Source of the DNA: a candidate division WOR-3 bacterium
Lineage (GTDB): Bacteria; Hydrothermota; Tepidihabitantia; SM23-42
Length of the DNA stretch: 39,393 bases
Reading direction: 5' to 3'
NCBI GenBank assembly: GCA_011052815.1
Contig: DRIG01000086.1
Location: forward strand, 1-39,393
Positions 250-24,653 of the stretch are shown here, in pieces (the first letter of the stretch is position 1; each line of letters starts with the position of its first letter). Under the pieces are notes generated by a model. The model was not told the origin of the DNA, did no database searches, and saw nothing but the letters and a program-made list of their open reading frames with translations. The position numbers and the translations under genes are program-made.

Positions 250-258
250 AATATCTGT

Positions 259-6614: not shown

Positions 6615-8812
6615 ATTTTCGCTCCGTTTATTTGTTTGATAAAAATTAGTCCCTTAGTATATAATAAGTTAAGAAATTTGTATACAAGTTTTTTTGCGAT
6701 TGTTTTTGAAGTATTCATTTCTTTGGCAAACTTATCTATTAAGTTATCCACATTAATCCAGCTACCTAAGTCGGTCAATATAGTATTTAATTCCCCAGCT
6801 AAACGAATGAGTTTTTCTGTTTTAGGATCAAAAATGTAAATTTTGTACCATTTAGTAAAATCTTCTGTTTTATTTGGGGAAGTCGGGCGAACAACCATTG
6901 ACATATCGGGTAATCCGTTTCTTTTAATCTCTCTTTCAGGATAAGTAAAAGTATGAAAAATTAATCCTTCTTTCCACTTACAAAACGAGAATTTTGCAAT
7001 ATTGATTTGTTTTTTTGTTCCTGTATCTATGTTTGTTTGAAAATTTCCTTTTATTGTAGTTAATGCCATTAACATATAAATAGAAGCCCCGTGAAATGTT
7101 GGCATTCGATAATAATACCGATAATGATTAAAACTTTTAAAACTATCCTCTAATTGACTTGCAAAATCAGCAAGTAATTGTGTCGTAATATCTCTGCGAT
7201 GTTTTATTTCTATACCTGGAAATAGAATGATATCCGCTTTATTTTTCATAAAATACTGTTGAACTTCTTCTGCCAGTCCGAATTTTGAGGGATCTTTCCA
7301 GATTGGAGAATTTAAAGCTAGCACAAATTCAGTTATGAAAAAAGATGTAATATTTCTCTTTTGTTGTTTTAAAAAATTTAATGTCTGCATAAAATCATAC
7401 GTCGTTTCAGTGGGGAAGTTGTTTATCACATAAATATGTACAAAAATTCCTAATTCTTTGCATCGCCGTAATATATTTCTTGCAGCGTTCAAATCAATAC
7501 CTTTACACATTAATTTAAGTATCCTGGGTGAGGCCGACTCAAGCCCAAACTGGATTTGGTATAATCCACTGCTCTTAAGTTTTTTTAAAATATTTCTAGA
7601 TAAACTTTTCTCAAATCTAAACATTCCTGTCCATAAAAAACCCTGATCAGTGATTTTGTTAGCAAGTAAGTCTGCCCATCTTGGTGAGATGCAGGAAGAT
7701 ATAAGATGGAATAGATTAGTATCATATTTTTGTGCAAGATAACTCATATCTGCAGCTATTTTTGATGGTGATTTTTCGCGATAAGGGCCAAAATAATTGT
7801 TGTTATACGAACAAAAGGTGCATTTGTTCCAATAACAACCAATCGCTACTGGTAACCCAATCACTAATCGAGGCGAAAGGTATAATTTAAGAGGCAGCCC
7901 ATCATAGTCTGGAGGTGGTAAAAAATTAGGGTCTTCATAATAGAATGGCTTATTGCATACATAACTCTTATTTTTTTTCCAAAAGAGATTGCGGCAGTTG
8001 TACCATGACTTACATCCTGAGAGGGAATCACATAAATCATCCAAAGCCTGTTCGCCCTCATAAAAAATAATACCGTCAATGTAATTCAACAAAGACTTGA
8101 GTTTAAAGCACTCTTTGGCAAAGAGAGACAAAAATGGTCCGCCGAACACAATAAAGATGTTTTTATTTCGCTCACGGATAAATTCACTTAATAAAAGGGC
8201 GAATGTAAGCTGCACAATACTGACTATGGATATACCTATTATTTGTGGATTGGTGGCTATTATCTGTTCAACTCTTGCCCTTAGGAAAGATGTAATTTCG
8301 CCGGGGAATCGTTTATATACGTTAATCACTTGCCCTAGAGTTTCTACAGCCGGATTAAACAGATAGTAATCTTTTCCCACATAACTAGGGTAAAGGAATG
8401 CAACGGTTATAATATTAAATCCACGGTTAATACACCGCCAGGCCCAATCAACTTTTATTATATATTCTTTAAGTTTATTTCTATCAGGGAGGACCCGCAA
8501 TATCCCCTTTGCATCTTCAATATCTTTTGCTACATATTTTCCACATACTATTATCTCTTCCATTTTTGCAAGAAGCCTTGCGGTGGTGAGATCTAAAAAT
8601 TTTGCACTGCTTAATTCCTTGTAACGACTGTGAATATGCTCAACTGCTTTTTCCAAAAATTCTGTTGTTAATAAATAGTTGAATAGCTCTATATTAAGAT
8701 CATATTGAAACACTTTATGACCTTTCTTTCGCAAGAAAGCTGTAAGACAAGGTAAACTTGGATAGGGAGATTCTATGTCCCAATGCGGTGGGAAAATCAA
8801 TGAGATCTTCAT
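6611..8812 (-). CDS. B12-binding radical SAM protein, RiPP-maturase type, with C-terminal winged-helix-like domain
   Basis: 733 residues. The N-terminal half (1-290) has the Rossmann-like cobalamin-binding layout of class B radical SAM methyltransferases (IFIVFGGPFLSLF near 220). The cluster motif is unusual: GCYWNKCTFCSYN with cysteines at 326, 331 and 334 (CX4CX2C), followed by PYREKSP. Known RiPP-maturation radical SAM C-methyltransferases carry a similar widened motif (CWW...CTFCG...YRxKS), so I assign it to that broad group. Residues about 670-733 form a small helical domain with the look of a PqqD-like or winged-helix recognition domain. It starts 1 nt after the previous stop. Predicted role: C-methylation or another radical modification of precursor 1 (inference). 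Confidence 0.85.
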   Translation of the reverse strand: MKISLIFPPHWDIESPYPSLPCLTAFLRKKGHKVFQYDLNIELFNYLLTTEFLEKAVEHIHSRYKELSSAKFLDLTTARLLAKMEEIIVCGKYVAKDIEDAKGILRVLPDRNKLKEYIIKVDWAWRCINRGFNIITVAFLYPSYVGKDYYLFNPAVETLGQVINVYKRFPGEITSFLRARVEQIIATNPQIIGISIVSIVQLTFALLLSEFIRERNKNIFIVFGGPFLSLFAKECFKLKSLLNYIDGIIFYEGEQALDDLCDSLSGCKSWYNCRNLFWKKNKSYVCNKPFYYEDPNFLPPPDYDGLPLKLYLSPRLVIGLPVAIGCYWNKCTFCSYNNNYFGPYREKSPSKIAADMSYLAQKYDTNLFHLISSCISPRWADLLANKITDQGFLWTGMFRFEKSLSRNILKKLKSSGLYQIQFGLESASPRILKLMCKGIDLNAARNILRRCKELGIFVHIYVINNFPTETTYDFMQTLNFLKQQKRNITSFFITEFVLALNSPIWKDPSKFGLAEEVQQYFMKNKADIILFPGIEIKHRRDITTQLLADFASQLEDSFKSFNHYRYYYRMPTFHGASIYMLMALTTIKGNFQTNIDTGTKKQINIAKFSFCKWKEGLIFHTFTYPEREIKRNGLPDMSMVVRPTSPNKTEDFTKWYKIYIFDPKTEKLIRLAGELNTILTDLGSWINVDNLIDKFAKEMNTSKTIAKKLVYKFLNLLYTKGLIFIKQINGAKI

Positions 8813-8813: not shown

Positions 8814-10178
8814 TTAACCAGGCCACCACCTCATAAATTTCTGCATGATTTCATTTTTAATTCTTAGATCCTTATGTTCGTATGTATAAAAAGAAGAGAA
8901 TAATTGCGGATATTGTAAAATTAAGTCAACCAATTGATAATTATATTTACCTATGGGTTTTATTGAAACATTAGGATTTGTTTCCATTATTGTGCGATCA
9001 GTGCACAATTTTTTGCCGAATTTTTTGTACAAAGGAGAACCACGACAAGATGATAATAAGGCAATTCTTTCTTGACACCCGAGAAGCCGGAAAAAAATAG
9101 TCAAGAAGAGAGTTTTATAAAACTGATTGATATTTTCAAAGGGAAAACCCCAGATAAATGATACCGTCGGGTTAAGTTGTGCCTCTAATGTATCATAAAC
9201 TACCGCAACAGATTGTTCTACTGTAACATTTGATTTGATTTGTGATAAAACAGAATTATCCCCGCTTTCAATCCCATAAAATATTCCTTCGCATCCATAT
9301 TCTTTCATCTTTTTCAATAAAGGAAGACTTATTGCATCAACTCGAGCCAAACAATTCCAGGTCAGTTTAATATTTCTTTTACCTAATTCATTACAGATTG
9401 AATGCACGCGATTTCTGTCCAAGACAAAATTATCGTCATCGAAGCTTATTTTTTCAATATGATGTTCTCTGTATAGATATTCTAGTATTTCACCGACCTT
9501 TGTCACAGAATAGCGGTAAACATTTTGACCCCAAATATTCCCAACTTCACAAAAAGCACATCTAAAGGGACAACCTCTTGTGGTCATAAAGGAAAAACTA
9601 TTGTATCTATGTAAATCAACTTTTGAAAAAGCAGGCAAAGGGAGGGTGTTTAAATCTTTTATCCGGGGACGCGGAGGATTGGAAATAATTTCACCTGTTC
9701 GTGCCCGGTAGACTATACCCTTAATATTACTAAAGTCACGGCTTTTACCTTCAACTATTTGTTTTACTAATTCAACTATCGTTTCTTCTCCTTCCCCTCG
9801 CACAACTACATCAATAAAACTGAAAGTCTTCAAGAGCTCTTCAGCCACCGGAGTAGGACCGGGACCACCTAGAATTATTGTTATATGAGGATATATTTTT
9901 TTAACCCCATCAGCTGCTAAACACGCGAAAGGCAACATATCATTTAAACAACTAATTCCAAGCCATTGAAGGTTAGGTTCCACCAGGGCAACGATATTCG
10001 CCGGATCAAAAGGGTTTCTTTTAGCATAAAACTGATAATCATAAAATTTTGTAAATAATCTATTTTTTTCAAGAACAGCAAGTAAGGATAAACATCCCAT
10101 AGGTAGTGGATGCAGTGGTCTGCTTGTTTTACGATTAGGAATAAATAGGTTAATCAATGTTCCAGTGTTATGTTTCAT
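8814..10178 (-). CDS. B12-binding domain radical SAM protein
   Basis: 454 residues. The N-terminal cobalamin-binding region (about 1-150) contains PLPMGCLSLLAVL and ILGGPGPTP, typical of the B12-dependent radical SAM superfamily. The cluster motif RGCPFRCAFC places cysteines at 203, 207 and 210 (CX3CX2C). Further class marks are SFDDDNFVLD and CEGIFYGIESG. There is no SPASM-type Cys-rich tail. It lies 18 nt after the TPR gene and directly before the second B12 radical SAM gene, inside RiPP operon 1. Likely a methyltransferase or other modifying enzyme acting on precursor 1; the exact reaction cannot be read from sequence. Confidence 0.9.
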   Translation of the reverse strand: MKHNTGTLINLFIPNRKTSRPLHPLPMGCLSLLAVLEKNRLFTKFYDYQFYAKRNPFDPANIVALVEPNLQWLGISCLNDMLPFACLAADGVKKIYPHITIILGGPGPTPVAEELLKTFSFIDVVVRGEGEETIVELVKQIVEGKSRDFSNIKGIVYRARTGEIISNPPRPRIKDLNTLPLPAFSKVDLHRYNSFSFMTTRGCPFRCAFCEVGNIWGQNVYRYSVTKVGEILEYLYREHHIEKISFDDDNFVLDRNRVHSICNELGKRNIKLTWNCLARVDAISLPLLKKMKEYGCEGIFYGIESGDNSVLSQIKSNVTVEQSVAVVYDTLEAQLNPTVSFIWGFPFENINQFYKTLFLTIFFRLLGCQERIALLSSCRGSPLYKKFGKKLCTDRTIMETNPNVSIKPIGKYNYQLVDLILQYPQLFSSFYTYEHKDLRIKNEIMQKFMRWWPG

Positions 10179-10196: not shown

Positions 10197-10901
10197 TCAT
10201 ACTTTTTTATTCATCTTCAATCTCTTTAATTTGTTACATAATCGCAAATTTTGCTTTATCGTGTTTTCTTCCGGCGTGATTTTCTGAGCCTCTAATAACC
10301 ATTTTTCACCTTCCGTAATTCTTCCAATTTTTAAATAAGCGACAGCTATATTATTCATAACTTTTACATCTTCCGGCCTCCGTTTAACTACTTCCTTGAA
10401 GTATTCTATCGCCCTTTCCCAATCACTCAAGGCTAACGCCGCACGGCCTAGTTCCTGATATATGAAAGCTATTTGCTCAGAAGGTTCGGCTTCTCCACAA
10501 CAATACTTTTTTAATAGCCTTTTATAATAAATTAAAGCCTTGTGCCATTCGTGCTGATCACTTAATATTCTTCCCTTTTGAAACTCAGCAGCAAAGAATG
10601 ACGGGTCTAAACTTATGACTTCATTAAACTCCTGCATAGCTTTAACATATTTTCCTATTTTGCGATGTATAACACCAAGAAAATAATAAATCATAGGAGA
10701 ATGTAGTTTTTTTCTGAGGGCTTTGATAAACTTATCCCTAGCTAAATATAAATTTTCCTCAATAATAAGATTTAAAATGCCACACGTGCCCTCAAACACT
10801 GATTGATATTTCAGTCGTTTTTTATCTAACAGTTTATTTTCAACCAGCAAATTTCTTAGTTCTTCATTAGTCTTAATAAAACGCGAGTATTTTGTTGCCA
10901 T
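10197..10901 (-). CDS. Tetratricopeptide repeat protein
   Basis: 234 residues, no signal peptide. About four TPR units lie between residues 65 and 220; recognisable cores include YYFLGVIHRKIGKYVKAMQEF, AFIYQELGRAALALSDWERA and MNNIAVAYLKIGRITEGEKW. The N-terminal 50 residues do not resemble a known domain to me. It is the first gene after the precursor 1 gene and its stem-loop, and it ends 18 nt before the radical SAM gene. A peptide-binding scaffold that presents the precursor or holds the enzymes together is a reasonable guess. No recognisable RiPP recognition element is seen in it. Confidence 0.85.
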   Translation of the reverse strand: MATKYSRFIKTNEELRNLLVENKLLDKKRLKYQSVFEGTCGILNLIIEENLYLARDKFIKALRKKLHSPMIYYFLGVIHRKIGKYVKAMQEFNEVISLDPSFFAAEFQKGRILSDQHEWHKALIYYKRLLKKYCCGEAEPSEQIAFIYQELGRAALALSDWERAIEYFKEVVKRRPEDVKVMNNIAVAYLKIGRITEGEKWLLEAQKITPEENTIKQNLRLCNKLKRLKMNKKV

Positions 10902-10980: not shown

Positions 10981-11124
10981 CTAACCAACCCTTCTGCAAG
11001 GGTTATGCTCATTGTTGCCGATGTTATCGGCTATTTCGTCTTCCAAATCTTCGACAACAAGCAAAGAGAGCAGTTTTTGTAGTTCCTTAGAAGGGTCTTT
11101 TTTAGTTTTAGTATTATCTTTCAT
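10981..11124 (-). CDS. RiPP precursor peptide 1 (47 residues)
   Basis: A 47-codon frame from ATG at 11124 to TAG at 10981, preceded by a G-rich ribosome site (GGGGGT, 3 nt before the ATG). It is charged at the start (MKDNTKTKKD). An amphipathic, Leu/acid-rich leader-like helix follows (KELQKLLSLLVVEDLEDE, 13-30). It ends in a short polar tail with one Cys (GNNEHNPCRRVG, 36-47). The layout leader-helix, small-residue switch, short core is that of RiPP precursors. It has the same length and the same gene position as precursor 2 at 20187-20330: first gene after a sigma-54 promoter, then a stem-loop, then radical SAM genes. Both share a KEL start of the helix. The cleavage site is not certain; Gly36 is a guess. 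A non-substrate leader ORF is the alternative. Confidence 0.75.
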   Translation of the reverse strand: MKDNTKTKKDPSKELQKLLSLLVVEDLEDEIADNIGNNEHNPCRRVG

Positions 11125-11331: not shown

Positions 11332-11341
11332 TAACTATACT

Positions 11342-11357
11342 TGCAATTTTTGTGCCA
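11342..11357 (-). promoter_or_regulatory. Sigma-54 promoter of RiPP operon 1
   Basis: On the minus strand the sequence is TGGCACAAAAATTGCA: an exact TGGCAC-N5-TTGCA element with GG and GC ten bases apart, the -24/-12 consensus for RpoN. Predicted transcription start is about 11331. The identical 16 bases recur at 20495-20510 before operon 2. Confidence 0.9.
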
Positions 11358-11397
11358 GAATTTTGTCCTGAAATTTCAAGACTTTTTTCTGGGTTTG

Positions 11398-11438
11398 TGA
11401 CATTTTTGTCAGTGGTTTTGACATAAAATGTCAAAACC
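11398..11438. promoter_or_regulatory. Tandem palindromic activator sites upstream of operon 1
   Basis: TGACA-N4-TGTCA (11398-11411) is followed by a perfect 25-nt inverted repeat with arms GGTTTTGACA and TGTCAAAACC around TAAAA (11414-11438). They lie about 67-107 bp upstream of the predicted start, where sigma-54 activators usually bind. The GAF-PAS activator at 22382-24157 is the candidate binder (inference). Confidence 0.75.
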
Positions 11439-11513
11439 CCAAAAATCAGCCGATTTTGAACAAAGATTTTTAAAATCTCCCGAAATCACAGGGATTATTT
11501 CAATCTGCTGCTC

Positions 11514-13637
11514 TTAGAAGTACACCAGATATTTCACCTTAACCGCACCTACCTGATTCTGTAATCTAAGACTGCCATTCTGAGCTGTGCGATAGTCATT
11601 TAAGGCAATGTAGAGCCAGGACTTGGGTTTGAAGTTGTAAGTAAAGAGAAAGCCAAACCGATTGGTCAAAAATTCTGTCTTGCCAAAATCTGTGCCTGGT
11701 GTGGTCAAGACAAACTCATTGAAGATTCCAAAACTCATCCTGGGTGTAATCGTAAGATCTATCATCGGTGTTGCCATGGGCCAGACGGCAATGATAGTAT
11801 TGGTCGTATCCCACTCAACCCAGAAGTTTGAATTCACTTCTAATGAAACCCGGGGTATAATTTGATAAACAAAGCCACACCAGCTTAAAACCTGATAACC
11901 TAAAAAGTTATTTTTGTAGTTATAGGCATATTCTAAATTACCACCCAACCAGAGATGAAGACGTAAAGTGCTGCGCCAGAATGAAAGACTCGCTGCCCGT
12001 TTAACGTAATTAAAACCCTCTTCATAATAAGGGCCCAGTTTTATCTCCGAACTGATTCCCCAATTCTGACGAAAACTTGAAGTAATCGTAAACAGAGCGA
12101 GTTTTGACCAATTCTCTGCATCACCTGCTTCCTGGTTTAAAATAAAACCCGCCCCATACCACAAACTTCTCAAGGCACCTTCTTTATATAGTTTTAAAGG
12201 ACCAGTGAATAATTGGAGCTTTTTACGACCCGCCCAGGGCACATACCCAATATCCTGCACGTCAAAAGAATCCTGAACCACCTCACAACTGGCCATAGTT
12301 CTGAATCCTCTGACAACTCCGCGGAAGCCGGTAGAAGTCGCCCACCCCATTTTACCACTTTGATCACTGACTGCCCCCTGCATAATTAGTTGATTAGCAC
12401 CAACACGATATACACCATCCAGTCCCAGGGCATAGTTATAATTCTGAAAATCGGCTCTGACCCCGCTGAAAAGCATACCCAAATGAGAATTGTCCAAAAC
12501 CTTCATCATTATTCTGGTTACACCAAAAAACCGCTTCGGTTCAACCACGGGATTGTCATTAACAATATAATGAAGTGAATCCGTATAAGCACAAAGCAGA
12601 CCATAATTGAATTTTTTGATTCGCCCGGTTAACTTAAGACCACCAATAATCGGCACTGGTTGGTCATCAGCCAATGACTTCCCTATTCTCCGTGAATAAA
12701 AAATATTTAAAGGCGAATAGAACTGGCCATTTTTACCAAAATCTGACAACCGAAAAATCTCTTTACCTTCAATGAAAAACGGGCGACGTTCACTTAAATA
12801 AGTTTCGTATCTTGATAAGTTTAAAGTAAACGGATCAGATTCAATTTGTGCAAAATCCGGGTATAATGTGCTGGTAAGAGTGGTCTGCGGGGTAATATCC
12901 CATTTTAAATTCAAACTGGCACGAGGCGTGAACTCACTTGCCTCTCCTGATTTTTTATCATAACGCACAAAACCTTCTGGGAAAAGTTCAAAATAATATC
13001 CCTTTACCTGAGGCAATATGCCTTTTAAAAGACCGTATTTTGATACCAGATTACCTTCGGCTTGTGAAAACTCAACCCAGTAATTCCACTCCTGCCGAGC
13101 AGCAATATAACGCTGAAAATTTATTCCCCATCCAGGTACATTCTCTTTGTAGCGAATCGAACAAAAAGGAATCTTGATTTCTACTTCATAACGGTCATCA
13201 TAAGCCTTTACTGCACAATACCACACACCATCCCAGGAATCATCCACACTTCTGCCGTCATCAAGCACCAAACCGTCCCAGTAACAACCGCTCGCTGAGA
13301 CGCCAAAATAATAAGCCGTGGTTCTGCTGTAAAAAGGGTCAAGAAATAACATCACCTGATCCTCATGGCAGCCTAACTCTCTGGTCAAACGGTAATTCTT
13401 TGTCCAGCAGCGAAATGCGACATAGAGATTATCTCTATCCTGCAGAAGATAAACCTTTGTTTCATCACCAGGATCAGTTCCTTCATACGGCATATATTGA
13501 ACAAAGCCATAAGCCGAATCCGCTTTCTGCCAGGTCTTTTCAATATACCCATCAATTACTGGAGAGGTATCCGTAAAACGGACTGAGATATACTTTTGAT
13601 TAATGTTCCAGAAAATAAGTAATATTAAAAAGCTCAT
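11514..13637 (-). CDS. DUF5916 / CBM9-like outer-membrane protein, copy 2
   Basis: 707 residues with an N-terminal hydrophobic signal (MSFLILLIFWNI). An N-terminal CBM9-like sandwich (about 18-205; VIDGYIEKTW and EVEIKIPFCSIRY) is followed by a strand-rich barrel region that ends in VKYLVYF. It is collinear with the 2910-5006 protein throughout, including the RRPFFIEGKEIF block and the last 60 residues. It sits 122 nt after YcaO as the last gene of RiPP operon 2, and its end lies only about 20 nt before the promoter module of operon 1. Presence in both operons argues for a role specific to these peptides, such as passage across or reception at the outer membrane. This is inference; the family has no proven activity. 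No clear terminator follows, so read-through into operon 1 is possible. Confidence 0.85.
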   Translation of the reverse strand: MSFLILLIFWNINQKYISVRFTDTSPVIDGYIEKTWQKADSAYGFVQYMPYEGTDPGDETKVYLLQDRDNLYVAFRCWTKNYRLTRELGCHEDQVMLFLDPFYSRTTAYYFGVSASGCYWDGLVLDDGRSVDDSWDGVWYCAVKAYDDRYEVEIKIPFCSIRYKENVPGWGINFQRYIAARQEWNYWVEFSQAEGNLVSKYGLLKGILPQVKGYYFELFPEGFVRYDKKSGEASEFTPRASLNLKWDITPQTTLTSTLYPDFAQIESDPFTLNLSRYETYLSERRPFFIEGKEIFRLSDFGKNGQFYSPLNIFYSRRIGKSLADDQPVPIIGGLKLTGRIKKFNYGLLCAYTDSLHYIVNDNPVVEPKRFFGVTRIMMKVLDNSHLGMLFSGVRADFQNYNYALGLDGVYRVGANQLIMQGAVSDQSGKMGWATSTGFRGVVRGFRTMASCEVVQDSFDVQDIGYVPWAGRKKLQLFTGPLKLYKEGALRSLWYGAGFILNQEAGDAENWSKLALFTITSSFRQNWGISSEIKLGPYYEEGFNYVKRAASLSFWRSTLRLHLWLGGNLEYAYNYKNNFLGYQVLSWCGFVYQIIPRVSLEVNSNFWVEWDTTNTIIAVWPMATPMIDLTITPRMSFGIFNEFVLTTPGTDFGKTEFLTNRFGFLFTYNFKPKSWLYIALNDYRTAQNGSLRLQNQVGAVKVKYLVYF

Positions 13638-13759
13638 TTTATCTTCCGTTTGTATTGAAACATATTAACAAATCTTTCTTGCTCAACAGTTTCTTATATC
13701 TTTTATTATAATGACAAAAAAAATATTTTAATTGGGATAAATTAATAAAAATCATATTA

Positions 13760-15577
13760 TTAATTATTTTGTTCCAATAGCCGGTGAACTTCTTCTTGAT
13801 TGATCCCTGCTCTTACCATCACATTTTTTAATTCCATATGTAATATTCTGAATCTTTCATACGAACATTCATTTTTAAAACAACAACGACTGCATGTTGG
13901 ACAAACTGCATTATTCCAGTTAATAAATATTTGCTTAGGTTTTTTAAACTCACCAAAAATCTTTTCGACTATTAGAGAACCATAAATTTTTGTTAAAACT
14001 TCTTTGTTCATCATAATGTTATCTTTTCGTTTTAATATAACAAAATAGTTCTTCAGACATCGTAAGTAAGAATTTATCTGGAAATCGTAATTTTTTTTAC
14101 ATAAAAGATTATCAATTACGTTAATTGCTTTGGTTAGCTCACCAAGTTTCCAGTATGCATAGATTAGAAAAGATGGCAAATTAATTTTCCCCAAAAATGA
14201 TTTTGAAGATAAAGGAAGCCCCGTTAACGATAACAGATTACTATCGTAACCTAACCTAAGTAGATTTTCAATATACGAAACCGTAATTCTCAATCTTTTA
14301 TTAGAAACGCGATCTATAGATCTTAACACCGAGGCTACCGAAACTTCTTCTTCAACTACCCTCAGTTTAGTATAGCTGAAATATCTAATTTCCGATATAC
14401 CGGGTATTATTATTTGAAATGTTGGGAATTTTAAATAACTATTATTTCTAATCAATAATTTCCAGTTCATTTTTTTAATGAAATCAATTAGATAATTTAA
14501 ACAATCACGATTGTTACGGAAACTTCGAACATAATTTTGCCTATTATATTGAAAGGTATAACAATCACTGAAGAAAACATTCGGCAAAACCGTCATACTC
14601 CGGAGGTCATAATACTCAAGGGACTTTTTTGATATTTCAATGCTTTCCTCAATATCGAATGGCCTAGCATGATGTAATTTCCACTTTAAATTTAATTGTA
14701 ACAACTCTGTAAGAGCCCTGTTCAACGCCATTCGTAAATCAGGATGAGCACCAAAGGAGATTAAATATTTATTAGACACTTGATCAAACAGCAGAATTGC
14801 AATAACAGGAAGATTAATGTTTAAAGAGCAATCTCTAACTTCAACAAAGTAATTTTTATTTTGTCTAATTTTTTTTAAAATCAAATATTCATTAGTAAAG
14901 TATTTTTGAAGCAATAACTCTGGGATTCGCGGGGGATTAATTTCATTCTGAATAATCTTTATTTTAGCAAATCTTTCAAATATCTCTGATATTCCTTGAA
15001 CGATAGCTTCTTCAAATGTATTTCCGGCACACATTCCATTACTACCATAAAACAATGGAGTAAAAACAGATGGAAGATAAACAATTGAGTCAGAAAAAAC
15101 ATCATAGTATGGTATACAAAGAAGATCTGTTTTATAAAAAGATTGGAATTTCAATAATTTACGTAAATAGGGAATCACCTTATTTTTATTTAAGTGGGGG
15201 AATTTATTGATTATTTCTGGTGGCATTTCTTTTATAAAAGTGGGTATATCTATGAATTTTTCATCAGGAGTGACAAAAAAATTACAGTGCTTTGCTAACT
15301 TTTTGTCAAAGCTATAAAATAAATCGAGAGGATATAAAATTTGATTTTGTAGTCGTTCCATTAGCTCACCATAAGCGCTAGCAAGTGCTTCTTTGTATGT
15401 AACACCTTTGCCGTATACACCCCAATTGGTTTTTTCATCTATAGTTAAATGTAAAGAACAAGTATCAGCACATGAAAAATACCATTTTTTTTCAATAGGA
15501 AAAAGACCCAGCGGTTTCAAAATTGTCCTTATATTAGTAACTGTTATTTCTGGCCTTTCATCCTTATAACCAAACAT
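13760..15577 (-). CDS. ycaO: YcaO-domain protein (ATP-dependent azoline/amide-backbone modifying enzyme)
   Basis: 605 residues. YcaO ATP-binding elements are present: GKGVTYKEALASAYGELMER (57-75), then GSNGMCAGNTFEEAI (178-192) with ISEIFERF (196-203). Length and layout resemble the E. coli YcaO type with an extra C-terminal region. A Cys-rich patch, CPTCSRCCFKNEC near residue 560-572, suggests a bound metal. YcaO enzymes phosphorylate the peptide backbone amide and make azolines, amidines or thioamides. No separate E1-like/Ocin-ThiF partner or TfuA is in the operon. The precursor 2 core has two Cys, one Ser and two Thr, so heterocyclisation is plausible (inference). The codon use is strongly AT-rich like its neighbours. 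Confidence 0.92.
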   Translation of the reverse strand: MFGYKDERPEITVTNIRTILKPLGLFPIEKKWYFSCADTCSLHLTIDEKTNWGVYGKGVTYKEALASAYGELMERLQNQILYPLDLFYSFDKKLAKHCNFFVTPDEKFIDIPTFIKEMPPEIINKFPHLNKNKVIPYLRKLLKFQSFYKTDLLCIPYYDVFSDSIVYLPSVFTPLFYGSNGMCAGNTFEEAIVQGISEIFERFAKIKIIQNEINPPRIPELLLQKYFTNEYLILKKIRQNKNYFVEVRDCSLNINLPVIAILLFDQVSNKYLISFGAHPDLRMALNRALTELLQLNLKWKLHHARPFDIEESIEISKKSLEYYDLRSMTVLPNVFFSDCYTFQYNRQNYVRSFRNNRDCLNYLIDFIKKMNWKLLIRNNSYLKFPTFQIIIPGISEIRYFSYTKLRVVEEEVSVASVLRSIDRVSNKRLRITVSYIENLLRLGYDSNLLSLTGLPLSSKSFLGKINLPSFLIYAYWKLGELTKAINVIDNLLCKKNYDFQINSYLRCLKNYFVILKRKDNIMMNKEVLTKIYGSLIVEKIFGEFKKPKQIFINWNNAVCPTCSRCCFKNECSYERFRILHMELKNVMVRAGINQEEVHRLLEQNN

Positions 15578-15657
15578 ATTGATTTTTTTTCAATAAATAA
15601 GATTTAAATTTCGACATATAAATAACATTATATGACGAATAAATACAAACAGTTTTA

Positions 15658-15885
15658 TTAAAGGAATAACTTATGTTCTTTTTCATTATCCAATAATCTA
15701 AACCCATCTATCTTTACTTCTTCTCCTTTATATGTAAATTTACATACTTTAAGAAGTGCTAGTATTGTTCCTCTTATTATATCACCGAGATTGCCAGTTG
15801 AATTTATGCAATTTTCGTCAGCTGGTAGCTCAAATCGATAGATATAATCACCCACTTCGTCTGTATTCTTGTAATTAATATTCAT
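15658..15885 (-). CDS. Small conserved-looking protein, domain shared with the upstream radical SAM protein
   Basis: 75 residues, no signal peptide. I do not recognise the family. The C-terminal half (DIIRGTILALLKVCKFTYKG, then VKIDGFRL) matches in pattern residues 68-103 of the protein encoded just upstream, where a hydrophobic helix is followed by RIIITGFRL. The small gene may thus be a free-standing version of that N-terminal domain, for instance a partner or substrate-recognition subunit. It starts 2 nt after the stop of the 580-residue radical SAM gene (TAG-AA-ATG) and ends about 80 nt before the YcaO start. Both facts tie it to operon 2. Confidence 0.65.
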   Translation of the reverse strand: MNINYKNTDEVGDYIYRFELPADENCINSTGNLGDIIRGTILALLKVCKFTYKGEEVKIDGFRLLDNEKEHKLFL

Positions 15886-15887
15886 TT

Positions 15888-17630
15888 CTAAAACTCAATT
15901 CGCGTACAGGGCAATAGGAAAACTCTATACCCAGTTTTTCGCTCAATTTCAGTATATGGTACACCACTAAAATCTCGCCCCCAACCAGCCACAAAAGTTC
16001 GAGGTATTACCACTGCTTCAGGCTTAAATTCTTCAACAAAAGAAGTATTAAGTAGTCGACAAAAATCTTCAACCATCATTAAATCTCCAAGAATAATGTT
16101 TCCACCCCAAAAATAATTTTTTGTCGTAATAAATTTAACATCACAATTGTTAAAGAAGATCTCTAGGTTAATAAACTCTCTTAACTTGTTTAACTGCTTC
16201 TTCATAAGGGGCGATACAAAAACAACAATACGGGAGAATTCTTTAGACAGAATCAATTGTTTAAGTTTCCTTAAAGCAGGGATATAAATTGAATTACACA
16301 TAAGCACTCCCCAAAAAGAGCCTAGGGTAGTCGAATAACCCTTTGGTTTGTACGGATATGCATATTTCTTATCTCCAAATTCTCGTAAAGAAAAAAATTT
16401 TTTTTCACTACCCCTTCTTACAAACAAGTTGCACACTTTCTTACCGTTTTTTTGTATTTTCATCATTTCTCTAATGAATCCATTGCGTGAAAAAATTTTC
16501 TTATCATTAATAGCCAATATAACATCACCACTTTTTAAACCGATATTGTAAGCTGGAGAATTTTTGATAATACCATCAATCACTGGTGAAATTGAAGAAA
16601 TCCAGTAGGAATTAATATCTAAAATTATCGGCATATCATAGTTGTTTCTAATTTTGCAAAAAAACGTTCTAATTTTACACCAGTGTGTCTTCATGTATGA
16701 TAGGCTATAAGAAGTTGGTTTGTTATATTTATTAAATCCAGGGAGAAATAAAACAACATAGAGTGCTTCCATTTTTTGGAGAAAATCTAAACTTTTTCGA
16801 ACATCATTGAAACTAATTTCCGGCCACATAAGAATGCTTCCTATATAACTTATTTCATAAGCACGAACAAGAGAAATTCCTTTAACTACATTTTCGTGAC
16901 ATCCCCCTCCCATAATTTGCTTTCGAAGATTTACACAGGTGGAATTCAGTGAAATATTTAGATGGATGGGCTTTAAAGATTCTAATCTTTTAATAATTTT
17001 TTTAGTTAAAAAAGTTCCGTTCGTTGTTATTTGAATTGGAGATACTGGATCTTTTTTCCGAGCCTTCTCCAGGATTCGAATAGCATATTTGTTCAGAAAA
17101 AATTCACCGGTACTCACATAATAGTCGAATAATCCTTTTTTTTCCAATGCATTGTAATATTTTATCCTTGTATTTGCTTCATCAAGACTCATCATATAAT
17201 TATGGTCATCTAGCGGACTATTTTTACGATAACAATAAATACATGAACAATTACATTTTGAAGAAAGAACACGCAAACCTTCAAAGAGCGATGTCGTTTT
17301 TCTTGTCCAGAATTTTAACTTCAGTCTAAAACCTGTTATAATTATCCTCTTTTTATTTTTATCAAGAAAATAAAATTTTTGTAATATTATTAACAAAATT
17401 TCTTTTATCATTATTATAACCGGTTCGGTAAATCTTATATAGTGATATGGAGTATAATTTAGCCCTGTATGTTCTGTTACGATGGCTGACTTGAAATTAT
17501 TTTTGGAAGCGAGATATTTTATGTCATATATATTAATTTTTTTACCATTTTCATCTTCAAATTCTATAACTTTACTGAATGTTTGGAAAATTGTTGCAAT
17601 ATATTCCCTAACAACTACAGTCGGTTCCAT
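15888..17630 (-). CDS. Radical SAM protein with PDZ and DUF512-like C-terminal domains
   Basis: 580 residues. Residues 1-110 are an unassigned domain resembling the small protein at 15658-15885. The radical SAM motif is KCNCSCIYCYR with cluster cysteines 126, 130 and 133. The rest of the barrel includes YYVSTGEF and ITTNGTF. A PDZ-like domain follows (about 345-410; PAYNIGLKSGDVILAINDKK). The last 140 residues have features of DUF512 (NYFWGGNIILGDLM, then VVIPRTF and GRDFSGVPYTEI). PDZ/radical SAM/DUF512 proteins are known but usually carry the PDZ domain first; here it lies between the other two. Probably modifies precursor 2. Its start overlaps the MFS stop (TAATG). Function unproven. Confidence 0.82.
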   Translation of the reverse strand: MEPTVVVREYIATIFQTFSKVIEFEDENGKKINIYDIKYLASKNNFKSAIVTEHTGLNYTPYHYIRFTEPVIIMIKEILLIILQKFYFLDKNKKRIIITGFRLKLKFWTRKTTSLFEGLRVLSSKCNCSCIYCYRKNSPLDDHNYMMSLDEANTRIKYYNALEKKGLFDYYVSTGEFFLNKYAIRILEKARKKDPVSPIQITTNGTFLTKKIIKRLESLKPIHLNISLNSTCVNLRKQIMGGGCHENVVKGISLVRAYEISYIGSILMWPEISFNDVRKSLDFLQKMEALYVVLFLPGFNKYNKPTSYSLSYMKTHWCKIRTFFCKIRNNYDMPIILDINSYWISSISPVIDGIIKNSPAYNIGLKSGDVILAINDKKIFSRNGFIREMMKIQKNGKKVCNLFVRRGSEKKFFSLREFGDKKYAYPYKPKGYSTTLGSFWGVLMCNSIYIPALRKLKQLILSKEFSRIVVFVSPLMKKQLNKLREFINLEIFFNNCDVKFITTKNYFWGGNIILGDLMMVEDFCRLLNTSFVEEFKPEAVVIPRTFVAGWGRDFSGVPYTEIERKTGYRVFLLPCTRIEF

Positions 17631-18811
17631 TAATGCTCCTTTTTTATATGAAAGATATAAAAATAAATGATAGGAACAATTAAAATAAATAAAAATGATA
17701 TTCCTAACACAGGACGGAATCCTATTTTATCACTCAAGCCAAAAACGATGGAGCAAAGTATCGTCGAAAACCCAATCATTAAGCTGTTTACAGAAAGAGC
17801 TGTGGCTCTTATATCGTCTGATAAATATTTGTTTATTAAGGATTGAAATAAAGGACGTTGCATTGCATAAAAGAACATATAGAAAATAAAAACAACAATA
17901 TATGCCACTTTATACATAGCAGATAAATTTACCATTATTACAACCATTAGACTAACAATTACGGATTCAACTACTAGACTTTTAGCTTCATTTTTAAAAA
18001 TACTATTTAAATTACCGGCATATTTTGCGCCAAGTATTGCACCGATTGTCGTTAAACAAGTAATAATTCCAAAATATGTTTTGTCAACACCTAATCTGTA
18101 ATTGAAAAACGGCTGCCAAACGAGTGATATTACTCCAGAGGATGCAAAGAAAAAGAATAGGGCAAAATTGAGCAGGAGTAATACTTTTCTGGAATACATA
18201 ACTTCCATACCTTTTTTTATTGTTTTAAGATATTTCCTATAGGCGTCCACTACCGACAACTTTTTTCTTCTTCTCTTATCAACTCCAACCATCAGTATAA
18301 ACATACCGAGAGTTATTGTCCCCATCCCCATAAAAAGCCAGAGTTCCTTGAGAAATTTATTAGCAACAAGAATACTGCTGAGAATAAATCCAGTTAATGA
18401 ACCGATATAACTTATCGACTCAATTTTACTCCAATAGTGAACGACGTTTTCCTCTCCATTAGAAATAGATTCAGCATACCATGCTTCCAGTGCTCCAGAG
18501 CAGAATGTCGCCATGATCCCTTTAAGCAGAAAAACTAAAAAAAATTGATATTTATGAATCACAAAGTACATCAGGAGAGATAAAAAACCACCTCCAAGAA
18601 AGGATACTGCAACAGATTTTTTGCGTCCTACCAGATCTGCGTAAGCACCGGTTGGTATTTCAAAGATCAAAACACCTAGGTAATGTATAACAAACATCAA
18701 TCCTATGTCTTGTGAATCCAAACCACTTTCATAGAAGTATAAGATTAGATAGGGACCGATTATTCCATTGATAAATGACGAAAAAAAATAAATATAATTA
18801 AAAATTCTCAT
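17630..18811 (-). CDS. MFS transporter (efflux type)
   Basis: 393 residues with about 12 hydrophobic segments, a normal length for the superfamily. The loop 2-3 signature is EIPTGAYADLVGRKKSV at about 51-67. It is flanked by radical SAM genes with 1-nt overlap downstream and 1-nt gap upstream. Within operon 2 it takes the place that the ABC exporter has in operon 1, so export or self-protection for the modified peptide is the likely role. Substrate is not visible from sequence. Confidence 0.9.
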   Translation of the reverse strand: MRIFNYIYFFSSFINGIIGPYLILYFYESGLDSQDIGLMFVIHYLGVLIFEIPTGAYADLVGRKKSVAVSFLGGGFLSLLMYFVIHKYQFFLVFLLKGIMATFCSGALEAWYAESISNGEENVVHYWSKIESISYIGSLTGFILSSILVANKFLKELWLFMGMGTITLGMFILMVGVDKRRRKKLSVVDAYRKYLKTIKKGMEVMYSRKVLLLLNFALFFFFASSGVISLVWQPFFNYRLGVDKTYFGIITCLTTIGAILGAKYAGNLNSIFKNEAKSLVVESVIVSLMVVIMVNLSAMYKVAYIVVFIFYMFFYAMQRPLFQSLINKYLSDDIRATALSVNSLMIGFSTILCSIVFGLSDKIGFRPVLGISFLFILIVPIIYFYIFHIKKEH

Positions 18812-18812
18812 T

Positions 18813-20132
18813 CTATGTATTGAGGTGAAAACATTTATATGGGTTACTTAAAAATTTTTTATGACTAAGGTAATTGTAAGCTATACATCGTGGAGATGGA
18901 CAATAAAGGAAATCAGCACATTTTGAACAAATATAATTATTTGATTTAAATAAATATTGCACATAACTTCGTATAGTTTTTGATTTCGTATTGTTCCAAA
19001 TTTTTTTGATCGGTTGTTCTTTTACATTCCCCAGAATTATTTCACGCGTAGTATTTACTCCAAAAATATTACATGGAACAACATCGCCACTGGGAAGAAT
19101 TGTTAAACTCAGAGAAACTGCACAAGAGTTTACTTTACTTTGTGTGTAAGCCGAATCACCTTCAATTATTACATCAGGATATTTTGTTCGTAGTTCTAGT
19201 ATTTTTTTATTTACATATTCAATTTCTCTGTAAGTAGGAATATATTCTTTTAATTTTTTCGCTCGCCCCCATTTTTTAAGCCGGTGGAATGCAATTTTCT
19301 TAATTCCTATTTTTCGTAGTAAGTTAACAATATTTTCTATATAAAGATAATTTTGTTTTCCATAAGTTATCTTAACCACTATTTGGTCAGCCCGACCTGA
19401 ATTCACAAGCATTCTTAATGCTTTGGTAATTTTAAAAAAGGTACCATAGCCGCGTAAATCATCGTTCATTGAAGCATTCGAGCCTTCTATAGAAATATTA
19501 AAGGATTTTATATTAAATCTTTCCAGACGTTTAATAAATTTTATTTGGTTTAATAAAATTCCATTTGTCGAAAGTCCAATTTCTATTTTTCGGCGAGAGA
19601 ATTCTTCTAAGAGTACGAAAAAATCTTTATGCAAAGTTGGTTCACCTCCACTGAATGCGACAAAAAAAATTTTTTCTTTTTCCATTTGAGCAGCAATATT
19701 TAATATCTCTTCAGTTAACATTTCATTACCCTCGCCTGGGATAGTTCCATACAAACAATGGTTGCACTTAAGGTTGCACTTATATGTAAGAAGAATTTCT
19801 AAACTTATAGGTACCCTCAATGATAATGATCGTTCAAAATAATTACAACTACTTTTATCTGGTTTATTATTATAAGATAACCAGTGTTTTTGAACCACGT
19901 GAAGCAATTCATTTATTTTTTTCTCCATGATGCCCACTGGAACATTATATCTATTAGCCAGAACCATCGGAATTCTATCGTACGATCTGTCTTTTTGCAT
20001 TTCTTTAAGAATATAATAAAGTAAAAGAGTCCTGTAAACAATGATATATGAATAATTACGTTTGTCAACTATTAACGTACTATTATTTTCTCTTCGGAAA
20101 TTTATAAATTTTATGAAAGAAAATTGCTTCAT
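18813..20132 (-). CDS. Radical SAM/SPASM peptide-modifying enzyme with N-terminal PqqD-like region
   Basis: 439 residues. Residues 1-100 have the size and helix pattern of a PqqD-like recognition domain. The radical SAM motif is YKCNLKCNHC (cysteines 119, 123, 126), followed by AFSGGEP (about 159-165). A SPASM-type tail binds extra iron-sulfur clusters: NSCAVS, DVVPCNIFG and CSKCADFLYCPSPRC. This architecture is that of sactipeptide/thioether, ranthipeptide and PQQ-type maturases, which bind the leader through the N-terminal domain. It is the first enzyme gene after precursor 2 and its stem-loop. With two Cys in the precursor core, thioether crosslinking or another C-H activation is plausible (inference). 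Confidence 0.92.
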   Translation of the reverse strand: MKQFSFIKFINFRRENNSTLIVDKRNYSYIIVYRTLLLYYILKEMQKDRSYDRIPMVLANRYNVPVGIMEKKINELLHVVQKHWLSYNNKPDKSSCNYFERSLSLRVPISLEILLTYKCNLKCNHCLYGTIPGEGNEMLTEEILNIAAQMEKEKIFFVAFSGGEPTLHKDFFVLLEEFSRRKIEIGLSTNGILLNQIKFIKRLERFNIKSFNISIEGSNASMNDDLRGYGTFFKITKALRMLVNSGRADQIVVKITYGKQNYLYIENIVNLLRKIGIKKIAFHRLKKWGRAKKLKEYIPTYREIEYVNKKILELRTKYPDVIIEGDSAYTQSKVNSCAVSLSLTILPSGDVVPCNIFGVNTTREIILGNVKEQPIKKIWNNTKSKTIRSYVQYLFKSNNYICSKCADFLYCPSPRCIAYNYLSHKKFLSNPYKCFHLNT

Positions 20133-20154
20133 AATTTAGTTAATAAATTATGTA

Positions 20155-20179
20155 AGAGGGGAAGATAACCTTCCCCTCT
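20155..20179 (-). terminator. Stem-loop between precursor 2 and the radical SAM gene
   Basis: Perfect 10-bp arms AGAGGGGAAG (20155-20164) and CTTCCCCTCT (20170-20179) with a 5-nt loop, 7 nt after the precursor 2 stop. The T-run behind it is poor (TACATAATTT), so it is more likely a leaky attenuator or 3'-stabilising hairpin. It occupies the same place as the stem-loop at 10930-10977. Confidence 0.7.
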
Positions 20180-20186
20180 GTCAAAA

Positions 20187-20330
20187 TCAGCGTTGATGGT
20201 AAGGAGCACTACATTGTGTGCAAGCTCCGGTGCCTCCGAATTGAATAAATCCCTCATCATTCAGTTCAGAGAGCAGTTCTGCGAGAATTAACTCTTTCTC
20301 CGTAGAATTTTCTTTCACTGTTTTTTGCAT
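20187..20330 (-). CDS. RiPP precursor peptide 2 (47 residues, Cys/Gly-containing core)
   Basis: A 47-codon frame from ATG at 20330 to TGA at 20187 with a strong ribosome site (GGAGGT, 4 nt before the ATG). Residues 12-25 form a Leu/Glu leader-like helix (KELILAELLSELND). Then come GFIQF and a Gly-Gly switch, and the tail GGTGACTQCSAPYHQR (32-47) with two Cys, one Ser, two Thr and Tyr-His. The double Gly before a Cys-rich tail is the classic leader/core boundary of exported peptides. Enzymes in the same operon (YcaO, SPASM radical SAM, PDZ radical SAM) act on such residues. The length equals precursor 1 and both helices begin with KEL. Confidence 0.85.
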   Translation of the reverse strand: MQKTVKENSTEKELILAELLSELNDEGFIQFGGTGACTQCSAPYHQR

Positions 20331-20484
20331 TTTTACCTCCTTGTTTGTATTTTTAATATATGTCCACTTGTGCCCCTAACAATAAAAACTCACTGATTTT
20401 TTAACAGATTAGTTAAAACATTACTTAAGTGAGCACATAAGTCAGGGCCAAACTCTTCTAGATCTCTTTTTCATTAGAGATCAT
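20331..20484 (-). promoter_or_regulatory. 5' leader of RiPP operon 2 with 5'-terminal hairpin
   Basis: About 150 nt between the predicted sigma-54 start (about 20484) and the precursor 2 ATG. Its first bases form a perfect hairpin, GATCTCT/AGAGATC at 20461-20482, which would protect the 5' end. The remainder is AT-rich with no other strong structure. It bears no likeness to the GC-rich leader of operon 1. Confidence 0.55.
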
Positions 20485-20494
20485 ATACTTAACT

Positions 20495-20510
20495 TGCAAT
20501 TTTTGTGCCA
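20495..20510 (-). promoter_or_regulatory. Sigma-54 promoter of RiPP operon 2
   Basis: Minus strand TGGCACAAAAATTGCA, an exact -24/-12 element identical to that of operon 1. Predicted start near 20484. Confidence 0.9.
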
Positions 20511-20549
20511 GAATTTTATCCTGAAATTTCAAGACTTTTTTCTGGGTTT

Positions 20550-20669
20550 GTGACATTTTTGTCACAGATTTTTTGAAAAAAATAGGGCAAAATCACGCAG
20601 TGCTTTATTTTACAGTACTTTGCCGTTGTGACATTTTTGTCAGTGGTTTTGACATAAAATGTCAAAACC
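20550..20669. promoter_or_regulatory. Three palindromic activator sites upstream of operon 2
   Basis: GTGACATTTTTGTCAC (20550-20565), TGACA-N4-TGTCA again at 20629-20642, and the 25-nt inverted repeat with arms GGTTTTGACA/TGTCAAAACC at 20645-20669. The first site lies exactly as far from the -24 element as in operon 1 (41 bp). The extra site comes with a 78-nt segment absent from operon 1. Confidence 0.75.
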
Positions 20670-20764
20670 CCAAAAATCAGCCGATTTTGAACAACTATTT
20701 TTAAAATCTCCCGAAATCACAGGGGAATTCAACAACCCTCCCTGCATTTTTCTCTCCATCTTCA

Positions 20765-20798
20765 TTTTCACATTTAGTCAATTGACAAAATGTGAAAA
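20765..20798. promoter_or_regulatory. Near-copy of the ArsR operator palindrome
   Basis: A 34-bp inverted repeat with one mismatched pair, centred on GTCAATTGAC with outer TTTCACATTT / AAATGTGAAA arms. It matches the perfect operator at 25090-25129. No -10 box accompanies it. It lies about 255 bp upstream of the -24 box of operon 2. Confidence 0.6.
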
Positions 20799-22381: not shown

Positions 22382-24157
22382 TCAGTTCTTCTCCGCTTCT
22401 TTGATGCAGCGGTAGACCTGTCGGATGCTGAGATCCAGAAGTCGACTGACTTTTTTCACGTCCCGGCTGTGGGCGAGAAACGTTTCATAGACCAGATTCG
22501 CCCGATAACGCCGCACCTTTTCTTTCAGGGAAACCGGCTGGCCGGTCTTCAATCCGATGTCGTCCGCATCAATGTACTCTTTCCGACAGGTTAAAAACGC
22601 CTGTCTTATGATCCCTTCCAATTCCCGGACATTCCCCGGATAGTCGTATTCCATAAGCAAAGAGACCGCTTCTTCGGTCAGACCGGCGATGAATCCGTGA
22701 TGGTTGTCCTTTAACTTCAAAAGAATGTGCTCAATCAAATTAGGGATCTCCGCCTTTCTCTCCCGAAGCGGCGGGATATTAATCACCGGTGTGTTTATAC
22801 GGTAATACAGGTCTTCCCGAAACTTTCCTTCTCTGACCATCTTTTCCAGATTGCGGTTGGTGGCGAAGATGAATCGTACGTCGATCTTTTTCTCTTTATT
22901 CCCACCCAGCGGAGAGACCTTTTTCGTCTCAAGTACACGCAGGAGTTTACCCTGAACATCAAACGGTAAATCGCCGATCTCGTCGAGAAAGAGTGTACCG
23001 CAGGATGCGTATTCAATCCGTCCAACTCGATCATACCGGGCGTCAGTGAACGCCCCTTTAGAGTACCCGAACAGTTCTGCTTCAAAAAGGGTATCAGGAA
23101 TCGCAGCGCAGTTCACCACCACGAAACGTGCTGCAGCACGGTGGCTGGCATTATGGAGCGCCGACGCAATCAGTTCCTTGCCGGTACCGCTTTCTCCAAC
23201 AATCAAAATGTTAATGTCCTGCATTGCAAGATGTCGGATCTTTTGCTTTATTTCATTCAACCCGATGATGTCTTCAGTGGTGTACGGAGCAAAGACCGCT
23301 TTGATTTTTTTGTCTTTTTCTAATTTCTCTTTGAGCGGCTCGAATAGAAATAAAAATTTATTGCTGTACTGTTTACGGGTGACCATAAACGACGATTTCG
23401 TACGTCGGGAATAAACGATCTCATTGGAAATTCTGTTTGAAGAAAAAAGGTCGATGTTGAAATCCCCCCGAATATTTTCACCTCTGCCAATCTCCAGGAT
23501 CTGGCGAGCCCTGAAATTGACGTACCAGACCCGGCCGTTCTGTTCGGTCAGAACAATACCGTTATTGAGCAGATCACACACGGAAATAATGAAATTGCCC
23601 TGAGTTATCTCGGTGTATTCCCGGCTGATGAGATGCGCCAGTGTCTTGACGAGGGCGAATGTATGAGGATGGCTTTTACGGTTGGGATGAATAATAACGA
23701 TGATCCCCAACAGAAGACCGCTGTCAATTACCGGCGCAGCAAAGCAGGAACCGTTCCTGAGGAATTTCGTAAAATATTCAGTACCGGAGACATAGAACGG
23801 TTTTCGTGTTTTCAAACAGAGAGATGCTGCGTTTGTACCCGCGTCTTCCTCGCACAGGAACGCGCCCTCAACAAGTCCGTACTTTTTTCTACTGGCTAAG
23901 ACCTTACGGGGACCGACGATCTTCAATATGCAGCATTCAGAATCAAGGAGAGCGGTCAAAGAACCACACTCTTTAAAGGTTTCTGCCATAAGCATCATAT
24001 AAGGAAGCGCGGCGTCAAGCAGGAATTTATGCCTCTTCTGTCTCCTGTGCAACTCTGTTTTGTCGACCCTTCTACGTAATCTCTTTACGTCGGGATTCAA
24101 CCCCATTTCCCGACAGCGTTTGATTGACTCTTTGATTATACTCTTTCTCTTATTCAT
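22382..24157 (-). CDS. Sigma-54-dependent transcriptional activator (GAF-PAS-AAA+-Fis)
   Basis: 591 residues. The N-terminal part resembles AcoR/DhaR-type activators (IKESIKRCREMGLNP, then a GAF-like domain about 45-185). A PAS-like segment follows (about 190-275; IVLTEQNGRVWYVNFRARQI). The AAA+ core has Walker A GESGTGKE (321-328), the sigma-54 contact loop GAFTDA (368-373; Asp where most have Gly), Walker B GTLFLDEIG and ATNRNLE. A Fis-type helix-turn-helix ends the protein (VSRLLDLSIRQVYRCIKEAE). There is no receiver domain, so it probably senses a ligand. It is the only sigma-54 activator in the window and lies 1.9 kb upstream of operon 2. It is the prime candidate to bind the TGACA/TGTCA sites and switch on both RiPP operons (inference). 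Confidence 0.95.
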   Translation of the reverse strand: MNKRKSIIKESIKRCREMGLNPDVKRLRRRVDKTELHRRQKRHKFLLDAALPYMMLMAETFKECGSLTALLDSECCILKIVGPRKVLASRKKYGLVEGAFLCEEDAGTNAASLCLKTRKPFYVSGTEYFTKFLRNGSCFAAPVIDSGLLLGIIVIIHPNRKSHPHTFALVKTLAHLISREYTEITQGNFIISVCDLLNNGIVLTEQNGRVWYVNFRARQILEIGRGENIRGDFNIDLFSSNRISNEIVYSRRTKSSFMVTRKQYSNKFLFLFEPLKEKLEKDKKIKAVFAPYTTEDIIGLNEIKQKIRHLAMQDINILIVGESGTGKELIASALHNASHRAAARFVVVNCAAIPDTLFEAELFGYSKGAFTDARYDRVGRIEYASCGTLFLDEIGDLPFDVQGKLLRVLETKKVSPLGGNKEKKIDVRFIFATNRNLEKMVREGKFREDLYYRINTPVINIPPLRERKAEIPNLIEHILLKLKDNHHGFIAGLTEEAVSLLMEYDYPGNVRELEGIIRQAFLTCRKEYIDADDIGLKTGQPVSLKEKVRRYRANLVYETFLAHSRDVKKVSRLLDLSIRQVYRCIKEAEKN

Positions 24158-24410: not shown

Positions 24411-24653
24411 CTACTCGCTCACATCAAGCGCAAAACAGGTAACCGTGCGCTGGATGCCCTCCACTCCTCTGATGTCGTTGATGATAATGGACTTAAGTTC
24501 ATTTAGATCCTTGCCTTCGGCATAGCAGATCACATCATGAAGTCCGGTTACGACATGGGCGTGTTTTACACCGTTTATTCTGTTCAGGGCGTCAACAACA
24601 TCACCCTCTTTCCCTGTTGCAGTATTGATTAATAAATAAGCAGCAACTGACAT
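24411..24653 (-). CDS. Stand-alone Lrp/AsnC-type RAM-domain protein
   Basis: 80 residues: AAYLLINTATGKEGDVVDAL, then NGVKHAHVVTGLHDVICYAE and a final strand VTCFALDVSE. This is the beta-alpha-beta-beta-alpha-beta RAM (AsnC_trans_reg) domain without the DNA-binding part, which is normal for the small stand-alone family. Such proteins bind amino acids and form rings, or partner full-length Lrp proteins. The gene has a strong ribosome site (GGAGGAAGCAATG), its own promoter and its own terminator, so it is a single-gene unit. Confidence 0.9.
   Translation of the reverse strand: MSVAAYLLINTATGKEGDVVDALNRINGVKHAHVVTGLHDVICYAEGKDLNELKSIIINDIRGVEGIQRTVTCFALDVSE

Follow-up and report, generated by a model that had tools for sequence, protein, structure and literature searches.

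Near-identical sigma-54 promoter modules before unlike RiPP-type operons point to a shared regulon in one family of candidate division WOR-3 bacteria

Why should unlike peptide operons stand behind almost the same stretch of promoter DNA? The question is raised by contig C86 of a candidate division WOR-3 (Ca. Stahlbacteria) genome, whose 39,393 bases are the entire window analysed here, and in which two operons of the kind that makes ribosomally synthesized and post-translationally modified peptides (RiPPs) follow two copies of a block with a sigma-54 promoter. In culture, RiPP clusters frequently remain unexpressed, and most of them are controlled individually. Our results make it likely that the operons belong to a dedicated regulon, in which sigma-54 and one activator serve several RiPP classes within a single WOR-3 family and the promoter copies are kept alike by recombination. 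What we report on the module, the regulon and the activator is based on comparison of sequences, which covered the source genome (G000; 2.39 Mb in 111 contigs, 97.6% complete), 147 genomes of the phylum and, for the co-occurrence of activator and module, 23 genomes of the family; G-numbers stand for genomes and C-numbers for contigs throughout.

The duplicated block could be confirmed at 11334-11493 and 20485-20724, on the minus strand. The original prediction had described a 155-nucleotide (nt) repeat with about three changes, and the description is accurate, as 11334-11493 and 20487-20724 show five differences in 160 nt once 78 nt are taken out of copy 2, three of them inside the 155-nt core and two at its promoter-side edge. 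Both blocks had also been said to carry the same exact promoter and TGACA/TGTCA sites, and exact matches were in fact found in each: TGGCAC-AAAAA-TTGCA lies at 11342-11357 and 20495-20510 (minus strand), giving both promoters the -24/-12 form recognized by sigma-54 (TGGCAC-N5-TTGCA/T, with GG and GC at fixed spacing) and predicted transcription starts near 11331 and 20484, and all TGACA-N4/5-TGTCA sites of the 39.4-kb window (at 11398, 11419, 20551, 20629 and 20650) fall within the two blocks. Read from upstream on the minus strand, the module consists of site A (TGACA-N5-TGTCA), site B (TGACAAAAATGTCA), a spacer, site C (TGACAAAAATGTCA), a GAAATTTC dyad and the promoter TGGCACAAAAATTGCA; in the long form, the activator-type sites are found at about -54, -132 and -153 relative to the -24 box.

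20485..20724, minus strand: sigma-54 module 2, long form, 240 nt; precedes operon 2; aligns at 94-95% identity with two copies on contig C55
20495..20510, minus strand: -24/-12 element TGGCACAAAAATTGCA of operon 2; exact consensus, predicted start near 20484
20523..20530, minus strand: GAAATTTC dyad, centred in CTTGAAATTTCAGG
20551..20564, minus strand: proposed activator site C, TGACAAAAATGTCA, -54 from the -24 box
20629..20642, minus strand: proposed activator site B, TGACAAAAATGTCA, -132
20650..20664, minus strand: proposed activator site A, TGACATTTTATGTCA, -154
11334..11493, minus strand: sigma-54 module 1, short form; precedes operon 1; a 78-nt deletion fused sites B and C
11342..11357, minus strand: -24/-12 element of operon 1; exact consensus, predicted start near 11331
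11398..11411, minus strand: proposed activator site, fused B/C, TGACAAAAATGTCA, -54
11419..11433, minus strand: proposed activator site A of module 1, TGACATTTTATGTCA, -76

Two copies had been claimed, but the genome holds four close ones, at about 94% identity or more, each before a different RiPP-type operon (two on C86 and two on C55), plus a diverged one on a further contig.

C55, 37103-37342: module copy, 94-95% identical to 20485-20724
C55, 45214-45453: module copy, 94-95% identical to 20485-20724
C64, 20158-20333: complete but diverged module in a restriction-system neighbourhood, with no RiPP operon on its strand

Within a repeated gene of the major facilitator superfamily (MFS), the beginning of C86 overlaps exactly, over 21 nt, with the end of C55, so that the two operons of C86 and the two of C55 probably form one tandem array. 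The sites are also specific to the module and no product of chance, with eight of the nine TGACA-N4-TGTCA positions in 2.39 Mb located in modules and none found for the control pattern, while TGGCAC-N5-TTGCW occurs 13 times in the genome and its reversed pattern not once. Among the genes behind other sigma-54 promoters of this genome are one for a pilin-like protein and one for a putative outer-membrane protein, and the motifs upstream of these promoters differ, as is the case for GTGCGACAAAATGTCGCAC on C39 and C57. The sole TGACA-N4-TGTCA site outside the modules is at C15:1508-1521. As for the dyad, a GAAATTTC/GTAATTTC form about 10 nt upstream of the -24 box is common to sigma-54 promoters with different activator sites (on C39, C55, C57, C64 and C86), and nine of the 11 distinct genome sites of the pattern CYNGWAATTTCRRG are at sigma-54 promoter regions.

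Whether the block stands in unrelated contexts in relatives could be answered by searching the phylum: the combined module pattern is present in 5 of the 147 genomes, all from one family and three genera (control hits: 0), and there again it is found with RiPP-type operons, which follow 9 of the 10 complete copies overall. The precursors in these relatives are unrelated and the spacing is nearly fixed. In all 10 complete copies the dyad stands at -20/-21 and site C at -54/-55, and in the long ones site B follows at -131 to -135 and site A at -152 to -156, these two being shifted by about 7 nt in G002. The modules themselves are about 74% identical between genera, as opposed to about 94-99% within the source genome. 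On contig C101 of G011 the module is followed by a precursor ending in ARACCCCNCNCNCCCIS, a leader-binding protein, a SagD-type YcaO protein and SagB; on C30 of the same genome, and in G015 and G017, by peptides of 27-28 aa such as MIKKISERSAHNSLGIAGLVVCCNGIAQ, a radical SAM protein and an MFS exporter; and in G002 by a short Cys-containing peptide, a radical SAM/SPASM protein, an M16 peptidase and ATP-binding cassette (ABC) genes. Spread to other phyla was considered and dropped, as a scan of 84,980 genomes at near-fixed spacing returned 31 loci, of which 5 were from WOR-3 and the other 26 looked like chance, being mostly within open reading frames (ORFs) or before unrelated genes.

The operons behind the blocks had been predicted to differ, and the four close copies do precede four different operons. 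Those of the window are composed as follows.

20187..20330, minus strand: operon 2 precursor candidate, 47 aa; ORF with GGAGG ribosome site and Gly/Cys-rich end, no family match
18813..20132, minus strand: radical SAM/SPASM maturase (PF04055, PF13186)
17630..18811, minus strand: MFS exporter (PF07690)
15888..17630, minus strand: radical SAM protein with PDZ domain (PF04055, PDZ)
15658..15885, minus strand: 75-aa protein, family not recognised (no NCBIfam or Pfam match)
13760..15577, minus strand: YcaO protein (PF02624 1e-47; nearest NCBIfam model S12 accessory YcaO, under cut-off)
11514..13637, minus strand: DUF5916-type protein; 3' end in the copied tract, 49-61% identical to the other copies, last 76 aa identical to a C55 fragment
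10981..11124, minus strand: operon 1 precursor candidate, 47 aa; ORF with plausible ribosome site
10197..10901, minus strand: tetratricopeptide repeat (TPR) protein
8814..10178, minus strand: B12-binding radical SAM protein (PF04055, PF02310; nearest NCBIfam model ApyD, under cut-off)
6611..8812, minus strand: B12-binding radical SAM protein (PF04055, PF02310; nearest NCBIfam model the RiPP C-methyltransferase TIGR03975, under cut-off)
5118..6614, minus strand: M3-type peptidase (PF01432)
2910..5006, minus strand: DUF5916-type protein (PF19313)
1103..2848, minus strand: ABC exporter (PF00664, PF00005)
1..271, minus strand: start of an MFS gene at the contig end, repeated on C55 (100% over 271 nt)

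A 47-codon ORF follows each module of the window, as predicted (10981-11124 and 20187-20330), but the radical SAM genes that were expected next are separated from it in operon 1 by the TPR gene. Operon 2, which runs from its precursor ORF through the radical SAM/SPASM, MFS, PDZ-radical SAM and 75-aa proteins to YcaO, holds the precursor, enzyme and exporter of a RiPP cluster. Operon 1 combines its 47-aa ORF and TPR protein with two B12 radical SAM proteins, the M3-type peptidase, a DUF5916 protein and the ABC exporter, and its radical SAM proteins are related to RiPP models, every score being under cut-off. On C55, operon 3 encodes a small peptide (MIIKENN...NQRTQRCPN), a radical SAM/SPASM protein nearest to the CefB and geopeptide maturases, and ABC genes; operon 4 encodes an M50-type protein, a precursor ending in CCCCCNCNCNSEAN, a ThiF-like leader-binding protein, a SagD-type YcaO protein and SagB, and with TIGR03604, TIGR03605 and TIGR03882 all over cut-off it has the make-up of a thiazole/oxazole-modified microcin (TOMM) cluster. 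The clusters are presumably of RiPP type, with modified peptides as their products, although for the radical SAM/SPASM operons these products are not predictable by family because the scores lie under the family cut-offs.

Sigma-54 control of RiPP-type targets, as originally proposed, gains from three circumstances, namely a single rpoN gene (PF04552 2e-49, on contig C4), an adjoining activator gene, and the recurrence of the module at near-fixed spacing in two other genera. The genome encodes eight strong AAA+ sigma-54 activators, and one of them is situated directly upstream of the array, with only a DUF4143 ATPase gene between.

22382..24157, minus strand: sigma-54 activator, the proposed regulator; GAF domain, AAA+ domain with GAFTDA, Fis-type helix-turn-helix (HTH) (PF00158 6e-66, PF01590)
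24411..24653, minus strand: small AsnC-type ligand-domain protein (PF01037); the same neighbour of the activator in G001, G011, G017 and G002

The AAA+ domain of this protein has the Walker motifs and the GAFTGA-type loop of an enhancer-binding protein (GESGTGKE, GTLFLDEIGD and GAFTDA), the last of which is listed as a variant compatible with activation (PMC4641369); its C-terminus is Fis-type by sequence, and co-occurrence hints at a possible tie to the TGACA-N4/5-TGTCA sites. Orthologues with a GAF domain are found in 4 of the 23 family genomes (G000, G001, G011 and G017). In G001 the contig breaks off inside a module that stands about 160 nt past the gene following the activator, and in G002 a GAF-less orthologue, with the same AsnC-type neighbour, is on the module's own contig. 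All five activator genomes are in fact among the six module genomes of the 23 (p about 2e-4, shared ancestry ignored). We propose that the activator would bind the sites at about -54, -132 and -153, and that its AAA+ domain would contact sigma-54 polymerase and open the -24/-12 promoter in response to a signal sensed perhaps by the GAF domain or by the neighbouring AsnC-type protein. Given the shared module and the adjoining likely activator gene, one such signal would switch on several unrelated RiPP operons together, and several peptide products are probably co-expressed.

Several observations weigh against this interpretation. Behind the diverged copy on C64 there is no RiPP operon on the same strand, and the 47-aa precursor of operon 1 could be placed in no recognisable family. 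G015 (88% complete) carries the module with no activator orthologue detected, whereas in G009 a near relative of the activator was found and the module was not; the HTH recognition region varies somewhat between genera; and the co-occurrence statistic would be less telling to the extent that it reflects shared ancestry. Together with the presence of eight strong activators, G015 and G009 would suit a real sigma-54 module controlled by another of the eight, with 22382-24157 serving other genes. We consider this unlikely, in view of the position of 22382-24157 beside the array, of the truncated module beside the G001 orthologue, of the shared contig in G002 and of the co-occurrence over 23 genomes; in addition, three of the other activators have a consensus promoter of their own within about 1 kb. 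The G009 relative was rejected as an orthologue, as it is without the AsnC-type neighbour and without the module, and another upstream motif is found near its own promoter.

How the copies stay alike can be read from the extent of their identity. Copies 1 and 3 are 99.4% identical over 350 nt, a tract that takes in the final 76 codons of the DUF5916 gene upstream, and copies 3 and 4 share 509 nt at 94%; identity ends close to the predicted transcription start and, for operon 1, extends upstream beyond the block to cover the 3' end of the gene before it. The whole DUF5916 proteins, unlike this shared 3' tract, are 49-61% identical. Such tracts, in otherwise diverged proteins and ending near the start, are characteristic of gene conversion or of segmental copying in the recent past. 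The earlier proposal of recent copying of a promoter cassette or gene conversion is therefore supported by copies at 94-99%, except that the module is not merely recent, but an older one at the level of the family that appears to be homogenised here. The 78-nt segment, described as an extra of copy 2, was instead lost from copy 1 by deletion between the direct repeats (TGACAAAAATGTCACAA) that form sites B and C; since the long form is present in all relatives, the short copy is derived and the 78 nt ancestral. If copying or conversion reaches the upstream gene and stops near the transcription start, it would keep the modules near-identical and thereby place unlike biosynthetic cassettes behind one promoter. 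At C55:45474-45992 a chimeric frame joins an MFS fragment to a DUF5916 3' end, which seems to be the trace of a deletion or recombination in the array.

The block could also be mainly a piece of fixed homology for the exchange of RiPP cassettes between conserved flanks, with shared promoter control as a by-product. The presence of four dissimilar operons flanked by almost identical modules and by DUF5916/MFS genes, the tracts that extend into the upstream gene and the chimeric fragment on C55 would all fit; recombination alone, however, would not require that the spacing of sites, dyad and promoter be conserved across genera with single or few copies about 74% identical, and no exchange event between genomes was observed, so that we hold this to be improbable. 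A transposable or miniature inverted-repeat transposable element (MITE)-like repeat carrying the promoter by chance is very hard to believe, in spite of several near-identical non-coding copies, internal palindromes and the orphan copy on C64, given that the copies stop inside a coding gene and close to the transcription start rather than at discrete element ends, and that the contexts are RiPP-type operons in three genera, with no copies elsewhere in the genome. Returning to the dedicated regulon, it is possible, if rather doubtful, that the module and the DUF5916/MFS flanks also provide fixed homology for swaps of whole cassettes, in which case any new peptide class would come under the one activator from the outset.

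Among the open-access papers searched, none was found that describes a sigma-54-controlled RiPP cluster or a RiPP-devoted sigma-54 regulon, subscription papers being outside the search. One of the closest systems is Nla28 of Myxococcus xanthus, which with sigma-54 directly controls polyketide and non-ribosomal peptide loci, and which resembles ours in having sigma-54 promoters with tandem activator sites and several natural-product loci under one activator (PMC7910581). Most of its promoters are inside genes and its 8-bp half site is CT(C/G)CG(C/G)AG (PMC7910581), whereas the promoters described here stand before the precursor or first gene, with TGACA-N4/5-TGTCA sites, and the targets are RiPP-type operons. 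The activator itself is built like enhancer-binding proteins of the NifA/NorR kind, with a GAF domain, an AAA+ sigma-54 interaction domain and a C-terminal HTH; it differs from them in scoring well under both model cut-offs, in GAFTDA instead of GAFTGA and in the GAF-less orthologue of G002. Operon 4 and the G011 C101 operon are similar to TOMM clusters (SagB/SagC-SagD) in their SagB, ThiF-like leader-binding protein, SagD-type YcaO protein and Cys/Asn-rich precursor, and unlike them in sharing a sigma-54 module with radical SAM clusters. The radical SAM/SPASM operons, in turn, have the short precursor, radical SAM/SPASM protein and exporter of CefB, geopeptide and related operons, yet they score under the family cut-offs and appear to be controlled through the shared module. 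In a phylum that has been seen almost exclusively through metagenomes, several unrelated RiPP classes appear to be under the control of one activator and one module. Such a finding, if true, would have uses, as the activator could provide a means of inducing several cryptic clusters at the same time, and the module could be a sequence handle for precursor genes without a recognisable family.

Two minor points concern the surroundings of the modules. An RNA element in the window was considered and dropped, because Rfam gave nothing over threshold and the folding advantage of the GC-rich operon 1 leader over shuffled sequences is slight (z -1.4). This leader (11145-11290, minus strand) and one at C39:24505-24588 (minus strand), behind different sigma-54 promoters, share the 13-nt CGGTCCTGACCCC and, further on, GGGGGCCGG; folding of the two is not clearly better than shuffles. 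The second point is a 40-nt palindrome at 25090-25129, which stands 14 nt in front of an ArsR-type gene and looks like an autoregulated operator; a similar one is found in the same place before the G002 orthologue. A near-copy at 20762-20798, one of five such sites in the genome, is 37 nt upstream of module 2, and it is possible that a repressor acts on operon 2.

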